Below are positions 31,151 through 37,410 of a stretch of 64,000 nt of DNA, piece after piece. Position 1 is the stretch's first letter. Each line of letters starts with the position of its first letter. The notes under the pieces were generated by a model. That model was not told where the DNA came from. It searched no databases and saw only the letters and a program-made list of their open reading frames with translations. The stretch spans positions 186,001-250,000 of the forward strand of contig NC_015581.1 of the NCBI RefSeq assembly GCF_000214825.1. Reading direction: 5' to 3'. The position numbers and the translations under genes were made by a program. This stretch comes from Thiomicrospira cyclica ALM1 (GTDB lineage: Bacteria; Pseudomonadota; Gammaproteobacteria; Thiomicrospirales; Thiomicrospiraceae).

Positions 31151-32035
31151 ATGTATAAGAAATTAACCAAAGCCATTATCCCTGTTGCGGGATTGGGGAC
31201 GCGCTTTTTGCCGGCGACCAAAGCGATACCAAAAGAAATGTTGACTGTGGTCGATAAACCATTGATTCAGTATATTGTACATGAAGCCGCTGAGGCGGGT
31301 ATCACTGACATCATTTTAGTGACTCACTCTAGCAAGAATGCGATAGAAAATCATTTTGACACTCATTATGAGCTTGAGGCCAAACTTCTTGAGTCCGCCA
31401 AGCATGATCGGATCGAGGCCATTAGTCAAATTTCACCCAAAGGTATCAATATTATTAGCGTAAGGCAGCCAGAAGCTCTAGGTCTTGGTCATGCTATTTT
31501 ATGTGCGAGTCATATTATTGCTCAGGACGAGCCGTTTGCCGTTTTACTGCCAGATGTTTTGATGTATCACCCAAAAAAAGGGTGTTTGGCTCAAATGGCG
31601 CAGAGTTACGAGCGTGTTCATACCAGCGTGATTGCACTTGAGCAGGTTCCCGATGACCAGGTGCATAAATATGGTATTGCCGGCGTGCAAGACCCTGATT
31701 TACGGATAAATCAATTGGTTGAGAAGCCAAAGCTGGGTGAAGCACCTTCAAATTTATCGGTCGTTGGCCGGTATATTTTTACGCCACGCTTAATGCAGCT
31801 TTTAAAAACAACAAAGCCGGGTGTTGCTGGTGAAATTCAATTAACCGATGCTATGGCGAGCTTGCTCAATGAAGAGGTCATGTTTGGTTATGAGTTTAGT
31901 GGTGGAAAAAGCTACGATTGCGGCGACAAGCAAGGCTTTTTACAAGCAAATGTGGAATATGCGCTTCGAGATGCTGTGCTAGGTAAATCATTTCAAGCCT
32001 ATTTAGAACAATTAGATGTGGCCAGCTTTAAATAG
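31151..32035 (+). CDS. galU: UTP--glucose-1-phosphate uridylyltransferase GalU
   Basis: A 294-residue nucleotidyltransferase making UDP-glucose. GLGTRFLPATKAIPKEML is the nucleotide-binding signature, and LPDVLMYHPKKG and EKPKLGEAPSNLSVVGRYIF follow in order (split by a variable loop). It heads galU-pgi-ugd-like, a set for UDP-sugar metabolism in envelope polysaccharide synthesis. The stop is 37 bases before the chosen pgi start. Confidence 0.96.
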   Translation: MYKKLTKAIIPVAGLGTRFLPATKAIPKEMLTVVDKPLIQYIVHEAAEAGITDIILVTHSSKNAIENHFDTHYELEAKLLESAKHDRIEAISQISPKGINIISVRQPEALGLGHAILCASHIIAQDEPFAVLLPDVLMYHPKKGCLAQMAQSYERVHTSVIALEQVPDDQVHKYGIAGVQDPDLRINQLVEKPKLGEAPSNLSVVGRYIFTPRLMQLLKTTKPGVAGEIQLTDAMASLLNEEVMFGYEFSGGKSYDCGDKQGFLQANVEYALRDAVLGKSFQAYLEQLDVASFK

Positions 32036-32072
32036 GCTGTATAAGCAAAATCAGGATCCCAAGGGGGGGTGT

Positions 32073-33707
32073 ATGGTGGTAAATCAATCATCGGCATGGC
32101 AAGCATTAATGGCATTAGCGGAGTCTGGCGTTGCAACAAAACATTTGCAAGATTGGTTTCAAGCTCAGCCAGATCGTGCCGAGCGCTATTCTATTGAGCT
32201 CGATGAACTTTATTTAGATTATTCTAAAAATCGAATCGATGACCAGGTTTTGGATGGCCTGCTTGCTTTAGCGGAGCAGCAAGGTATGGCGCAATGGATT
32301 GAGCGTTTGGTTACCGGTGACATTGTTAATGATACCGAAGCTCGCCCAGCGCTACATTCAGCTTTACGCGGATTGCAAGGGGCGCCAGCTTCGGGTTTAG
32401 CGGCAAAGGTCCAGCCAGAGATAGAATCCCAATTTAATAAGATGGCTAAAATCGTTAATAAAATTCGTGCAGGGCATTGGCGGGGTTATAGCGGTAAGCC
32501 AATTACAGATGTGGTAAACATTGGTGTTGGTGGGTCTGATTTAGGGCCGCTAATGGTCACTCATGCCTTGCAGGTTCAGCAGTCCCCGGTCAGGTTACAT
32601 TTTGTCTCTTCGATTGATGGTACTCAAACATCTAATTTGCTTAACACCTTGAATCAAGAAACTACACTGTTTGTTTTAGCGTCTAAATCTTTTACAACCA
32701 TTGATACGCTATCAAATGCAGAAACGGCCAAAGATTGGCTAGAAGAACGTATTGAGCGTTCAGGAACACTGATGGCTCAACATTTTATTGGCGTGTCTAC
32801 GCGTCCAGATAAAATGCTTGAGTGGGGTATTCCAGAGGAAAACCAGTTACTGTTTTGGGAGTGGGTCGGTGGTCGCTATTCCATGTGGTCAGCGATTGGG
32901 TTTCCGATCGCACTAAAGGTTGGCATGAAGGGTTTTTATCAAATGCTTGAAGGCGCTAATTTGATGGATGAGCACTTTGCGACAGCGCCTTTGGCTGAAA
33001 ATATTCCGGTCATTATGGGGTTGGTTGATGTTTGGAATATTAATTTTTTAAATATTAATGCCAAGGCGATATTGCCTTATGATGCGCGACTTAAGTACTT
33101 ACCATCCTACTTTGAGCAGTTGGTAATGGAGAGCAATGGCAAGTCGGTTAACCGTAATGGCGATAAGGTGCCTTATAAAACCTGTCCTATCTTGTGGGGT
33201 GAGGTCGGTCCAAATGCACAGCATGCTTTTTATCAGTTGCTTCATCAAGGTACCCAAGCAGTGATGAGTGATTTTATCGTGCCTGTAGAGCGTGATGATT
33301 TTGAACGTTACTCAGGCGCCGATAAAGATGCCTCATTACTTAAGCAGCATCATTTAGCCTTGGCAAATTGTTTTGCTCAGTCTCGTGTGCTGATGTTAGG
33401 CGACGCGGCGATTCCTGATAGTTTAAAAGCAAGTTTTAATAGCCCATATAAACACTATGAAGGTAACCAGCCTTCCAACACCATTCTATTAAAAACCCTT
33501 TCGGCAAAAACACTTGGGATGTTGGTGGCACTCTACGAGCACAAAACATTTGTTGAGTCCGTCGTTTGGGAAATTAATCCTTTTGATCAATGGGGGGTGG
33601 AATTAGGTAAACTAATTGCAAAAGAAACCTACGCTTGTTTAGCTGAGGACGCACCTTTAGCCTCGTTTGATGCCTCGACACAAGCCTTAATGAAGCGAGT
33701 AAAGTAA
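32073..33707 (+). CDS. pgi: Glucose-6-phosphate isomerase
   Basis: A 544-residue isomerase interconverting glucose-6-phosphate and fructose-6-phosphate. Signatures VNIGVGGSDLGPLMVT, FVLASKSFTT, GGRYSMWSAIG and GSPYKHYEGN-like NSPYKHYEGNQPSNTI are visible. The ATG at 32073 follows a very strong AAGGGGGGG; an upstream in-frame TTG-type start would overlap galU and is less likely. It is followed without a gap by the UGDH-like gene. Confidence 0.96.
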   Translation: MVVNQSSAWQALMALAESGVATKHLQDWFQAQPDRAERYSIELDELYLDYSKNRIDDQVLDGLLALAEQQGMAQWIERLVTGDIVNDTEARPALHSALRGLQGAPASGLAAKVQPEIESQFNKMAKIVNKIRAGHWRGYSGKPITDVVNIGVGGSDLGPLMVTHALQVQQSPVRLHFVSSIDGTQTSNLLNTLNQETTLFVLASKSFTTIDTLSNAETAKDWLEERIERSGTLMAQHFIGVSTRPDKMLEWGIPEENQLLFWEWVGGRYSMWSAIGFPIALKVGMKGFYQMLEGANLMDEHFATAPLAENIPVIMGLVDVWNINFLNINAKAILPYDARLKYLPSYFEQLVMESNGKSVNRNGDKVPYKTCPILWGEVGPNAQHAFYQLLHQGTQAVMSDFIVPVERDDFERYSGADKDASLLKQHHLALANCFAQSRVLMLGDAAIPDSLKASFNSPYKHYEGNQPSNTILLKTLSAKTLGMLVALYEHKTFVESVVWEINPFDQWGVELGKLIAKETYACLAEDAPLASFDASTQALMKRVK

Positions 33708-33708
33708 T

Positions 33709-35019
33709 ATGAAAGTAGCAGTTTATGGATGCGAGCTGACTGGATTGGTTACAGCAGGCGCTTTGGCGCAAGTGGGTAACCAAGTTATGGCTCTACCTGT
33801 TGGGTTTGTTAAGGTTGCTGATTTGGAGGCGGGTGTACTACCGCGAGAAGAGCCGGGGTTGGCTAACTTATTGGCTCAGCAGCAGTCTGACCAGCGGTTG
33901 CATTTTGAGTCAGACTGGGAAAAGGGTTTGGTACATGCCGATGTTTTAATCATTGCAACACCTTCCTGGCGAATGGACCGAGCCGAAGCAATCATCGATC
34001 TTATCGGACAAAAAGTTAAAAAAGACCTTGTGGTGGTAAATCAAAGCACATTTCCGGTTGGTACGGCAGATCGTTTCGAGGCCAAGTTAAAATTGGCATT
34101 AGCCGAGCGAGGCGAGGTTTTTGGAGTGTCGGTGGTTGCAATGCCTGATTTTCTGAGCGAAGGCTCTGCAATTGATAATTTTATGCGTCCGGATCGCATC
34201 ATTCTAGGTTCATCAAGTGAAGCTAGTATAAGGGTTATGCGTGACTTGGTAAGGCCTTTTAATCGTGTAACAGATCAGATTAAGGTCATGAGTACACGTG
34301 CCGCTGAATACACAAAGTACGCAGTCAATGCGTTATTGGCAACACGCATTAGTCTAGTTAATGAACTGGCTAACAATGCTGAGCATTTTAATATTGATTT
34401 TGAAGAAGTTCGTCAGGGTCTGGGTTCAGATCACCGTATAGGCTTTAATTATTTGTACCCAGGTTGTGGGTTTGGCGGGCCAAGTTTTGCAGCTGATGTG
34501 CGTTCGCTGGTCGCAAACCTTCAAACAATGGGCTATGATGCTGACCTATTAAAAACCGTTTTATCAAATAATGAAACCCAAAAAGAAGTGTTGTTCCGTA
34601 AAGCATGGCGTTTCTTTGATAATGATTTGCGCGGCATTAAAATTGGAGTGTGGGGTCTGTCTTTTAAACCCAATACCGCTACAGTTGAAAACGCCCCAAG
34701 TGTGAAAGCCATTGAAGCCTTTTGTGCACAAGGTGCTCAAATAAAAGCTTACGATCCCAAAGCTATGATGGATTTTTCAGATCATTGGCGAGGTGCAGAG
34801 CAAGTTGAATTAGTTGATAATATGTATGCGGCTCTTGAAGGCGTCGATGCTTTAATCATTATGACAGAATGGAAAATATTCTGGAGTCCCGACTACGCAC
34901 AAATGAAGCAGTTAATGAAGCGACCGATTATTTTTGATGGTCGCAATATTTATGACCCTGAAATGATGGTTTCTCATGGGTTTCGCTATTTTGGCGTGGG
35001 TCGTGGTGAAGAAGTGTAA
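33709..35019 (+). CDS. UDP-glucose/nucleotide-sugar dehydrogenase-like protein lacking the catalytic cysteine
   Basis: A 436-residue protein of the UGDH family: N-terminal NAD-binding domain, central AEYTKYAVNALLATRISLVNELAN, and C-terminal UDP-binding domain (GVWGLSFKPNTATVENAPS). The family active-site motif is G-G-x-C-x-P-K-D; here it is GFGGPSFAADV, so Ser259 replaces the catalytic Cys and Ala262 the Lys. The nucleotide loop is also altered (YGCELTGLV instead of GxGxxG). MPDFLSEG has Asp in place of the usual Glu. The downstream reading frame is intact, so this is a conserved variant rather than decay. Its true reaction is unknown. Confidence 0.85.
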   Translation: MKVAVYGCELTGLVTAGALAQVGNQVMALPVGFVKVADLEAGVLPREEPGLANLLAQQQSDQRLHFESDWEKGLVHADVLIIATPSWRMDRAEAIIDLIGQKVKKDLVVVNQSTFPVGTADRFEAKLKLALAERGEVFGVSVVAMPDFLSEGSAIDNFMRPDRIILGSSSEASIRVMRDLVRPFNRVTDQIKVMSTRAAEYTKYAVNALLATRISLVNELANNAEHFNIDFEEVRQGLGSDHRIGFNYLYPGCGFGGPSFAADVRSLVANLQTMGYDADLLKTVLSNNETQKEVLFRKAWRFFDNDLRGIKIGVWGLSFKPNTATVENAPSVKAIEAFCAQGAQIKAYDPKAMMDFSDHWRGAEQVELVDNMYAALEGVDALIIMTEWKIFWSPDYAQMKQLMKRPIIFDGRNIYDPEMMVSHGFRYFGVGRGEEV

Positions 35020-35027
35020 GGAACACT

Positions 35028-35789
35028 ATGCAAGAACCTTTAGAGCAAGCTAAAACAGAGCGCGGTATATATTGGTTACCTAACCTGATCACCACCTTGG
35101 CATTATTTGCAGGCTTTTATGCCATTATTGCGGGAATGAATGGTCAGTTTATGCATGGCGCTATAGCGTTATTTGTTGCTATGGTATTTGATGGCTTGGA
35201 TGGTCGCATTGCTCGAATGACAAATTCATCGAGTGCGTTTGGTGCCGAGTATGACAGCCTCGCTGACATGGTTTCTTTTGGTGTTGCACCGGCATTGCTG
35301 ATGTATCAATGGGTGTTATATGACTTGGGCAAACTAGGTTGGATTGTCGCTTTTGTTTTTGTAGCGGGTGCGGCATTGCGATTGGCGCGATTTAACACGC
35401 AGGTTGGGGTTGCCGATAAACGCTACTTTCAGGGTTTAGCTAGTCCTGCGGCGGCAGCCGTGTTAGCAGGCCTGGTGTGGATGATTGAAGCTAATAATCT
35501 TAATTTTGATGGGCTAGTGTGGGTTGCGTTATTATTGACTTTTGCTGGCGGTATTCTCATGGTGAGTAATGTGCGATACAGTAGCTTTAAAGAGTTAAAT
35601 TTAAAAGATAAAGTACCGTTTGTTACCCTGCTTGTGATAGTAACGGTATTTGTCATTATTACGATTAAGCCCTCAGTGTTTTTATTTGGTTTAGCCTTGT
35701 TGTACGCTGTATCGGGACCAATAATGACACTTGTCACGATACGTAAGACACGAGAAGGACGAAAGCGTCAGAAAACTGATACAGAATAA
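35028..35789 (+). CDS. pssA: CDP-diacylglycerol--serine O-phosphatidyltransferase PssA
   Basis: A 253-residue inner-membrane CDP-alcohol phosphatidyltransferase, type II. The motif D-G-x2-A-R-x8-G-x3-D-x3-D is spread over DGLDGRIARMTNSSSAFG and AEYDSLADMVSFG. About eight hydrophobic segments follow. It makes phosphatidylserine, precursor of phosphatidylethanolamine. Its neighbour leuA is 70 bases downstream; pssA next to ilv/leu genes is a common arrangement. Confidence 0.93.
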   Translation: MQEPLEQAKTERGIYWLPNLITTLALFAGFYAIIAGMNGQFMHGAIALFVAMVFDGLDGRIARMTNSSSAFGAEYDSLADMVSFGVAPALLMYQWVLYDLGKLGWIVAFVFVAGAALRLARFNTQVGVADKRYFQGLASPAAAAVLAGLVWMIEANNLNFDGLVWVALLLTFAGGILMVSNVRYSSFKELNLKDKVPFVTLLVIVTVFVIITIKPSVFLFGLALLYAVSGPIMTLVTIRKTREGRKRQKTDTE

Positions 35790-35859
35790 TGGAACGCTAT
35801 GAAATTGACATTCCGTATTTATCGTAAACTTTAGCCATACAAGAAAATAGAGACGAGTG

Positions 35860-37410
35860 ATGAAAGACCATTTAATTATTTTTGATACGACATTGCGTGA
35901 TGGTGAACAAAGCCCTGGTGCTTCAATGACTAAAGAAGAGAAGGTTCGTATCGCTAAGCAATTAGAAAAAATGCGAGTAGATGTCATTGAGGCTGGTTTT
36001 CCTGCCGCGAGCGACGGTGATTTTGAATCCGTTCAGGCTGTTGCCAAGGTCATCAAAGATAGTACTGTGTGCGGTTTGGCGCGTGCTGTTGAACATGACA
36101 TTGTCAAAGCGGGGCAAGCGATTGCACCCGCAAACTCAGGACGTATTCATACCTTCATCGCAACCTCACCGATTCATATGGAAATGAAATTACGTATGAC
36201 ACCTGATCAGGTTGTTGAGCGTGCGGTTTGGGCCGTTAAGCGAGCACGAGATTTTACCGACAATGTCGAGTTTTCTCCAGAAGACGCCGGTCGTTCAGAG
36301 CTCGATTTTTTATGTCGTGTCATTGAGGCTGCGATTGATGCTGGGGCAACCACGATAAATATTCCTGATACAGTTGGTTACAACGTACCCGACCAATTCG
36401 GTTATTTATTTAAGCAGTTATTAGAGCGCATTCCTAATGCCGATAAAGCCATATTTTCAGCGCATTGCCATAACGACTTGGGTTTAGCGGTGGCTAACTC
36501 GATTGCTGCTGTGACTAATGGCGCCCGCCAGGTTGAATGTACAATCAACGGCTTGGGTGAGCGAGCAGGTAATACAGCACTAGAAGAGTTGGTTATGGCG
36601 GTCAGAACCCGCCAAGATTATTTCTCGGTTGATACGCGTATTCATACTCCGGAAATCTTGACGGCATCGCGTTTGGTTTCAAATATCACTGGGTTTAGTG
36701 TCCAGCCAAATAAGGCGATTGTGGGTGCCAATGCCTTCGCCCATGAGTCAGGCATTCATCAAGATGGTGTGCTCAAGCATCGTGAAACTTATGAAATTAT
36801 GCGAGCTGAAGATGTGGGCTGGAGTACCAATAAAATGGTGTTAGGCAAGCATTCTGGTCGTAATGCTTTTAAAACGCGCTTACAAGAACTGGGCGTTGAA
36901 TTTGAAACAGAGCAGCAGTTAAACGATACGTTTGTTCGCTTCAAAGAATTGGCGGATCGTAAGCATGAAATTTATGATGAAGACTTACAAGCGCTTGTAA
37001 CGGAAGCCAATATTGAACGGGTAGAAAATGAGTCTATTCGATTGGTTGCATTGAAAGTGGCCGCTGAAATGGGTGAGCAACCTAGTGCGACGATTACTCT
37101 ATCCGTTGATGGACAGGAGTTTACTGCCAGTGCTATGGGAGGGGGCGTGGTTGATGCGACCTTTAAGGCGATTGAGCAAATCCTCAATTCAAAAACGACT
37201 CTGGAGCTTTATTCAGTAAGCAACGTGACGAATGGGACGGACTCTTTAGGTGAAACGTCGGTTCGGCTTGAAAAAGGTGGTCGCATCGTTAACGGGCAAG
37301 GTTCTGATACGGACATAGTAACGGCTTCAGCGAAAGCATATATCAATGCGCTGAATAAGTTTTCTGATGCCGCCATTAAAGCACACCCGCAACGTCAAGA
37401 AACGGTATAG
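35860..37410 (+). CDS. leuA: 2-isopropylmalate synthase LeuA
   Basis: A 516-residue enzyme that starts leucine synthesis by joining acetyl-CoA and 2-oxoisovalerate. [15 protein letters not shown] and the [13 protein letters not shown]-like [12 protein letters not shown] metal site are visible, and the C-terminal regulatory domain (leucine-sensing) follows residue about 390. The ATG at 35860 is one codon after an alternative GTG. holD-like follows directly. No leader peptide or attenuator was recognised upstream. Confidence 0.96.

Follow-up and report, generated by a model that had tools for sequence, protein, structure and literature searches.

A conserved UDP-glucose dehydrogenase-like pseudoenzyme encoded behind galU and pgi in Thiomicrospira cyclica, and its possible role as a UDP-glucose sensor

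The closest described relatives of the protein analysed here, which we name UgdX, are the TuaD/BceC-type UDP-glucose 6-dehydrogenases (TIGR03026, NF047673; structures 2y0e, 3gg2 and 4a7p). UgdX resembles these enzymes in its three-domain full length, its Pfam families and its UDP-sugar contacts, but it lacks the catalytic Cys and the NAD contacts, has a shorter loop in the N-terminal domain, carries invariant residues of its own and is linked to galU and pgi. The E. coli/S. pyogenes-type Ugd (PRK15057; 1dli/1dlj) is a distant homologue that served as a reference for residue roles; unlike UgdX, it has the canonical Cys and GxGxxG motif, and in most relatives it is encoded by a separate gene elsewhere. 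UDP-glucose is a nutrient signal read by the moonlighting enzymes OpgH in E. coli and UgtP in B. subtilis (PMC3723540), and this use of the UDP-glucose level is a logic that UgdX is proposed to share. Neither is homologous to UgdX; each is an active glucosyltransferase and inhibits the assembly of FtsZ. GalF, a paralogue of GalU, is a suggested GalU modulator and offers a works-like analogy, being an atypical relative of such an enzyme of UDP-glucose metabolism, although its fold is different and it is a nucleotidyltransferase homologue.

The window is the whole stretch of 64,000 nucleotides that was analysed, positions 186001-250000 of the T. cyclica ALM1 genome, which is a single contig of 1,932,455 bp. 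The ugdX open reading frame is intact, and its first base lies 1 nt past the end of pgi. The genes of the locus, in window coordinates, are as follows.

31151..32035, plus strand: galU, UTP-glucose-1-phosphate uridylyltransferase (UDP-glucose synthesis); an orthologue is equally placed in f1, f102, f154 and f171 loci
32016..33707, plus strand: pgi, glucose-6-phosphate isomerase (longest open reading frame), on the same strand as ugdX and stopping 1 nt before it
33709..35019, plus strand: ugdX, UDP-glucose dehydrogenase-like pseudoenzyme of 436 amino acids, assigned from domain matches, clade and residue counts
35028..35789, plus strand: pssA-like phosphatidylserine synthase, following ugdX in part of the order and outside the cross-family association
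35857..37410, plus strand: leuA, 2-isopropylmalate synthase, which comes next in part of the order

An earlier note on this DNA had called the gene intact and given the order as galU-pgi-ugd, which is right; pssA and leuA come after. The longest pgi open reading frame (32016-33707) overlaps galU by 20 nt, and pgi may in fact start at an internal ATG. Promoter and terminator scans gave no useful signal.

The window protein matched PF03721 (N-terminal), PF00984 (central) and PF03720 (C-terminal), all above the Pfam cut-offs, placing it in the NDP-sugar dehydrogenase superfamily. Its TIGR03026 score was 308.5 bits (cut-off 189.8), and its match to NF011631, reflecting the distant homology to E. 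coli/S. pyogenes-type Ugd, was 76.5 bits, while its score of 319.1 bits against the TuaD equivalog NF047673 fell far below the curated cut-off of 700 bits, leaving it outside that family. The closest solved structure, aligned end to end by phmmer, was 2y0e, the canonical UDP-glucose dehydrogenase of B. cepacia. AlphaFold2 modelling of the window protein with three relatives reached a mean pLDDT of 49, so we base no structural claim or fold search on it.

Residues were counted at the 18 sites described as invariant, with their roles, in a survey of 229 nucleotide-sugar dehydrogenases (PMC4794789), from which residue roles were taken, and at further functional sites. We compared 70 distinct pseudoenzymes with 39 canonical sequences, all 39 of which carry the canonical residue at every counted site. 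Sequences were assigned to one set or the other on the Cys column, so the Cys count holds by construction; the remaining columns are independent of this assignment. The following segments of the window protein depart from the canonical enzymes.

34468..34497, plus strand: active-site segment, residues 254-263, GFGGPSFAAD (Ser259 for Cys260, Ala262 for Lys263, Asp263 for Asp264); Cys in 0/70 pseudoenzymes
33730..33747, plus strand: former GxGxxG dinucleotide loop, residues 8-13, CELTGL, with Gly9 changed to Glu; Gly9 in 1/70 pseudoenzymes vs 39/39 canonical sequences
33796..33798, plus strand: Pro30 replacing Asp29, which holds the NAD adenosine ribose (role from PMC4794789); Asp in 0/70 vs 39/39
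34687..34689, plus strand: Glu327 replacing Arg327, which binds the NAD pyrophosphate; Arg in 3/70, Asp or Glu in 59/70

Where the window protein has GFGGPSFAAD, UGDH reads GYGGSCFPKD. Gly7 and Gly12 of the GxGxxG motif are still present, and it is the middle Gly9 that has become Glu. Lys263, a contact of the nicotinamide ribose, is kept in 2/70 pseudoenzymes and Tyr10 in 4/70. The VGTPxxxDGSAD loop is shortened in the window protein, and all 70 pseudoenzymes have a shorter N-domain loop around Thr83. Part of this loss depends on where the gaps are placed, since Thr84-Pro85 of the window protein could align to the canonical Thr83-Pro; Thr83 was therefore scored with caution. The old Cys position is occupied by Asn, Ser, His, Tyr, Gly or Thr, with Ser or Asn in 61 of the 70. 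Compared with a catalytic UDP-glucose 6-dehydrogenase, the window protein thus lacks the nucleophile Cys, GxGxxG together with Asp29, and Arg327 together with Lys263.

The earlier note had correctly read Ser259, Ala262 and CELTGL, and the departure proved wider than it claimed, extending to Pro30, Glu327 and the short loop. Its view that two-step oxidation to UDP-glucuronate is unlikely was borne out: with the Cys and the NAD residues lost, this reaction is very unlikely, and the status of UgdX as a dead dehydrogenase is well supported by the residue counts. The same note had considered that Cys253 might stand in for the missing nucleophile. This was ruled out, since canonical enzymes carry a Cys there too, besides the catalytic one (31/39), and the pseudoenzymes are not invariant at this position (54/70). 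No other Cys was near-invariant across the 70-member pseudoenzyme clade.

The UDP-sugar side of the site presents a different picture. The contacts Lys204, Asn208, Arg244, Gly257 and Lys320 are all found in the window protein, and the following positions are fixed across the pseudoenzymes.

34315..34317, plus strand: Lys203, equivalent to SpUDPGDH Lys204 (sugar C6 contact), kept in 70/70
34435..34437, plus strand: Arg243, equivalent to SpUDPGDH Arg244 (contacting the glucose 2-OH from across the dimer), kept in 70/70
34666..34668, plus strand: Lys320, contact of the UDP-glucose diphosphate (role from PMC4794789), kept in 70/70
34606..34608, plus strand: Trp300, in QKExLFRKxW, invariant in the pseudoenzymes (70/70) and variable in canonical sequences

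Gly257, Gly258 and Asn219 are likewise each present in 70/70, Asp264 in 64/70 and Asn208 in 58/70. By residue content, then, the predicted NAD half of the site is dismantled in the UgdX clade and the UDP-sugar half is retained. Besides Trp300, all 70 pseudoenzymes share Glu293, Gln341, Phe255 and Arg213, and nearly all have Arg297 and Trp392, at positions where canonical sequences mostly differ. Some f154 members (L174, L175, L181, L182, L183 and L185) read GFGGNTFPQT or GFGGNNFPQT and have also lost the general-base Asp264; canonical UGDH genes lie elsewhere in this family. Because Asn208 or Asp264 is lost in some divergent members, the pocket may differ at its glucose end, and a different UDP-sugar may be the ligand.

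The protein is widespread among relatives of T. cyclica. Within the order to which the window belongs, 59/63 genomes and 7/7 genera had a match to UgdX, although in a few the sole match was distant and off-locus (e.g. G009). The substitutions recur in 9/9 sampled Thiomicrospira genomes, and related ones occur order-wide: core members have CELTGL or CELSGL with GGP[SN]FAxD, and divergent members at the same locus have GGPNFMAD, GGPNFARD, GGPHFAQD, GGEHLEMD or GGAYLERD. A search of 369 genomes from the class, extended by follow-up searches, found UgdX in three further gammaproteobacterial families, f102, f154 and f171; the neighbourhood in f171 (tol-pal, ubiG, tamA) resembles that of Halomonadaceae. 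A phylum-wide pattern search, covering GFGGx[S/N]F forms, found no UgdX outside Gammaproteobacteria among the sampled genomes; pattern matches in G622 and G805 were rejected, as there is no UGDH-like open reading frame at those places. In two trees, of 52 and 56 proteins, the pseudoenzymes formed one clade apart from the canonical enzymes with 100/100 support. UgdX thus appears as a pseudoenzyme branch of the nucleotide-sugar dehydrogenases, for which a single origin is the simplest reading of trees whose branches are long and whose inner order is weak.

Gene context is shared across these families. Directly upstream of the gene and on the same strand, galU or pgi was found for 67/69 pseudoenzymes with enough flanking sequence vs 1/39 canonical genes, the latter drawn by profile score rather than at random. 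The relatives inspected in the order of the window have galU-pgi-ugdX, followed by pssA-leuA in some of that order; f102 and f154 also have galU-pgi-ugdX, and f171 has galU-ugdX without pgi. Canonical ugd adjoins galU in P. aeruginosa. Given such neighbours elsewhere and the non-random canonical sample, the ancestral ugd may already have sat in this operon. Position alone is therefore no proof of a partner, since adjacency to galU could derive from an ancestral galU-pgi-ugd operon, and one canonical locus likewise has pgi upstream.

Collectively, the kept UDP-glucose residues, the lost Cys and NAD residues and the conserved place right after galU in several families suggest that UgdX probably works as a regulator that binds UDP-glucose, not as an enzyme. 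We assign a probability of roughly 55% to the reading that UgdX, a conserved pseudoenzyme within the UDP-glucose dehydrogenase family, serves as a UDP-glucose sensor or feedback regulator at the glucose-6-phosphate/UDP-glucose branch, with GalU, and then Pgi, as its likeliest partner; we infer the sensor or regulator function from residue conservation and gene context only. UgdX would dimerise, with the conserved Arg of one subunit extending over the dimer to the sugar bound by the other, and would bind but not oxidise UDP-glucose or a closely related UDP-sugar. Occupancy of the sugar site would then be relayed to a partner, most likely GalU and next most likely Pgi, making UgdX a putative sensor or feedback regulator at this branch. 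The interface or the conformational switch may involve Glu293, Trp300 and Gln341, and also the near-invariant positions Arg297 and Trp392.

Having lost the cofactor half and wholly retained the sugar half, UgdX clearly exemplifies the change of an enzyme into a likely ligand receptor, and its fixed place behind galU indicates a testable partner. If UgdX is a UDP-glucose sensor, it would provide a handle on how the UDP-glucose level is read in these bacteria, a task for which E. coli and B. subtilis use unrelated proteins. More tentatively, the clade may represent a widespread and undescribed group of UDP-glucose receptors that arose from UDP-glucose dehydrogenase, have lost the redox half and control GalU and the glucose-6-phosphate/UDP-glucose branch in several gammaproteobacterial families. 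A search of the freely available literature found no description of such a clade and no paper joining 'UDP-glucose dehydrogenase' with 'pseudoenzyme'.

The best-surviving alternative, which we nonetheless consider unlikely, is that UgdX is a non-catalytic structural or scaffold subunit, for instance holding GalU and Pgi together, in which bound UDP-sugar merely stabilises the fold. The tight linkage to galU and pgi would fit such a role, as would the invariant new surface candidates Trp300, Gln341 and Glu293, and the UDP-sugar residues may serve folding or dimerisation. A purely structural role, however, leaves unexplained why five substrate-contact residues are conserved in 70/70 pseudoenzymes, and the galU-ugdX pair of f171 lacks the pgi that a scaffold of this kind would join. 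Somewhat less probable again is a changed enzyme that uses Lys204, Asn208 and Asp264 for NAD-free chemistry on a UDP-sugar, such as hydrolysis, epimerisation or transfer. The retention of Lys204 (70/70), Asp264 (64/70) and Asn208 (58/70), with 61/70 carrying Ser or Asn where the Cys once stood, is compatible with this, but that position varies and Asp264 and Asn208 are gone in some lineages, unlike what a conserved new active site would show.

The earlier note had proposed a new role for the protein, for example as a sensor or in a one-step oxidation. A non-catalytic, sensor-like role fits best with the loss of the NAD site and the retention of the UDP-sugar site, and that part of the proposal stands. 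An NAD-dependent dehydrogenase performing a one-step oxidation with Ser259 is highly improbable, since the dinucleotide site has gone along with the Cys: Asp29 is found in 0/70, Gly9 in 1/70 and Lys263 in 2/70, Arg327 is mostly replaced by an acidic residue, and position 260 is not a conserved Ser. In favour of this reading, Asp264 and Lys204 are retained, and a Ser alone can permit part of the chemistry, as the C276S variant of human UGDH accumulates a covalent adduct (PMC3184952).

An equally improbable reading is that UgdX is a dead regulatory subunit of canonical UGDH in a hetero-oligomer. UGDH forms dimers or hexamers with inter-subunit sugar contacts (PMC3184952), and many pseudoenzymes, f171 offering one instance, coexist with a canonical enzyme. 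In T. cyclica, however, the earlier note's suggestion to look for a second, canonical ugd yielded just a truncated fragment of the E. coli type: ugdX is the only gene in the genome with an N-terminal UGDH domain above the cut-off, the fragment is the only other central-domain match, and no other intact nucleotide-sugar dehydrogenase was found in this genome. The complete one-contig genomes G011, G031, G064 and G067 each gave a single match at E 0.001 and showed no canonical partner either. The function of UgdX thus needs no catalytic dehydrogenase partner. The truncated ugd (L002:1198-2106; G000:C1:1453168-1453671, outside the window) lies in a 302-aa open reading frame in which chromate-transporter-like sequence is in frame with the C-terminal part of ugd; it has GYGGYCLPKD, lacks the NAD domain and is a remnant of a canonical ugd still intact in several relatives. 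Databases name UgdX-like proteins nucleotide-sugar or UDP-glucose dehydrogenases, as TIGR03026 is matched well above its cut-off, and such automatic naming predicts UDP-glucuronate synthesis where it is probably absent; in T. cyclica, UgdX is the sole full-length member.

That UgdX is a functionless decaying remnant or a sequencing error, as the loss of many motifs might suggest (the earlier note had allowed for a sequencing error should relatives prove canonical), is ruled out for practical purposes by clade-wide conservation and low dN/dS, with identical losses in independent genomes, near-universal full length, and relatives at this locus that also lack the canonical Cys. Nine close pairs, which come from two families, had dN/dS values of 0.009-0.047; such closer pairs were taken because dS was saturated inside Thiomicrospira. 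Within that genus, the dN of ugdX was close to that of pgi. By these sequence-based measures, UgdX is a selected protein under strong purifying selection and no relic. Nearly all members are full length. One f171 pseudoenzyme (L090:5483-6601, in G424) has an apparent frameshift near the C-terminal part that leaves 372 amino acids, and the same genus has intact copies (e.g. L133).
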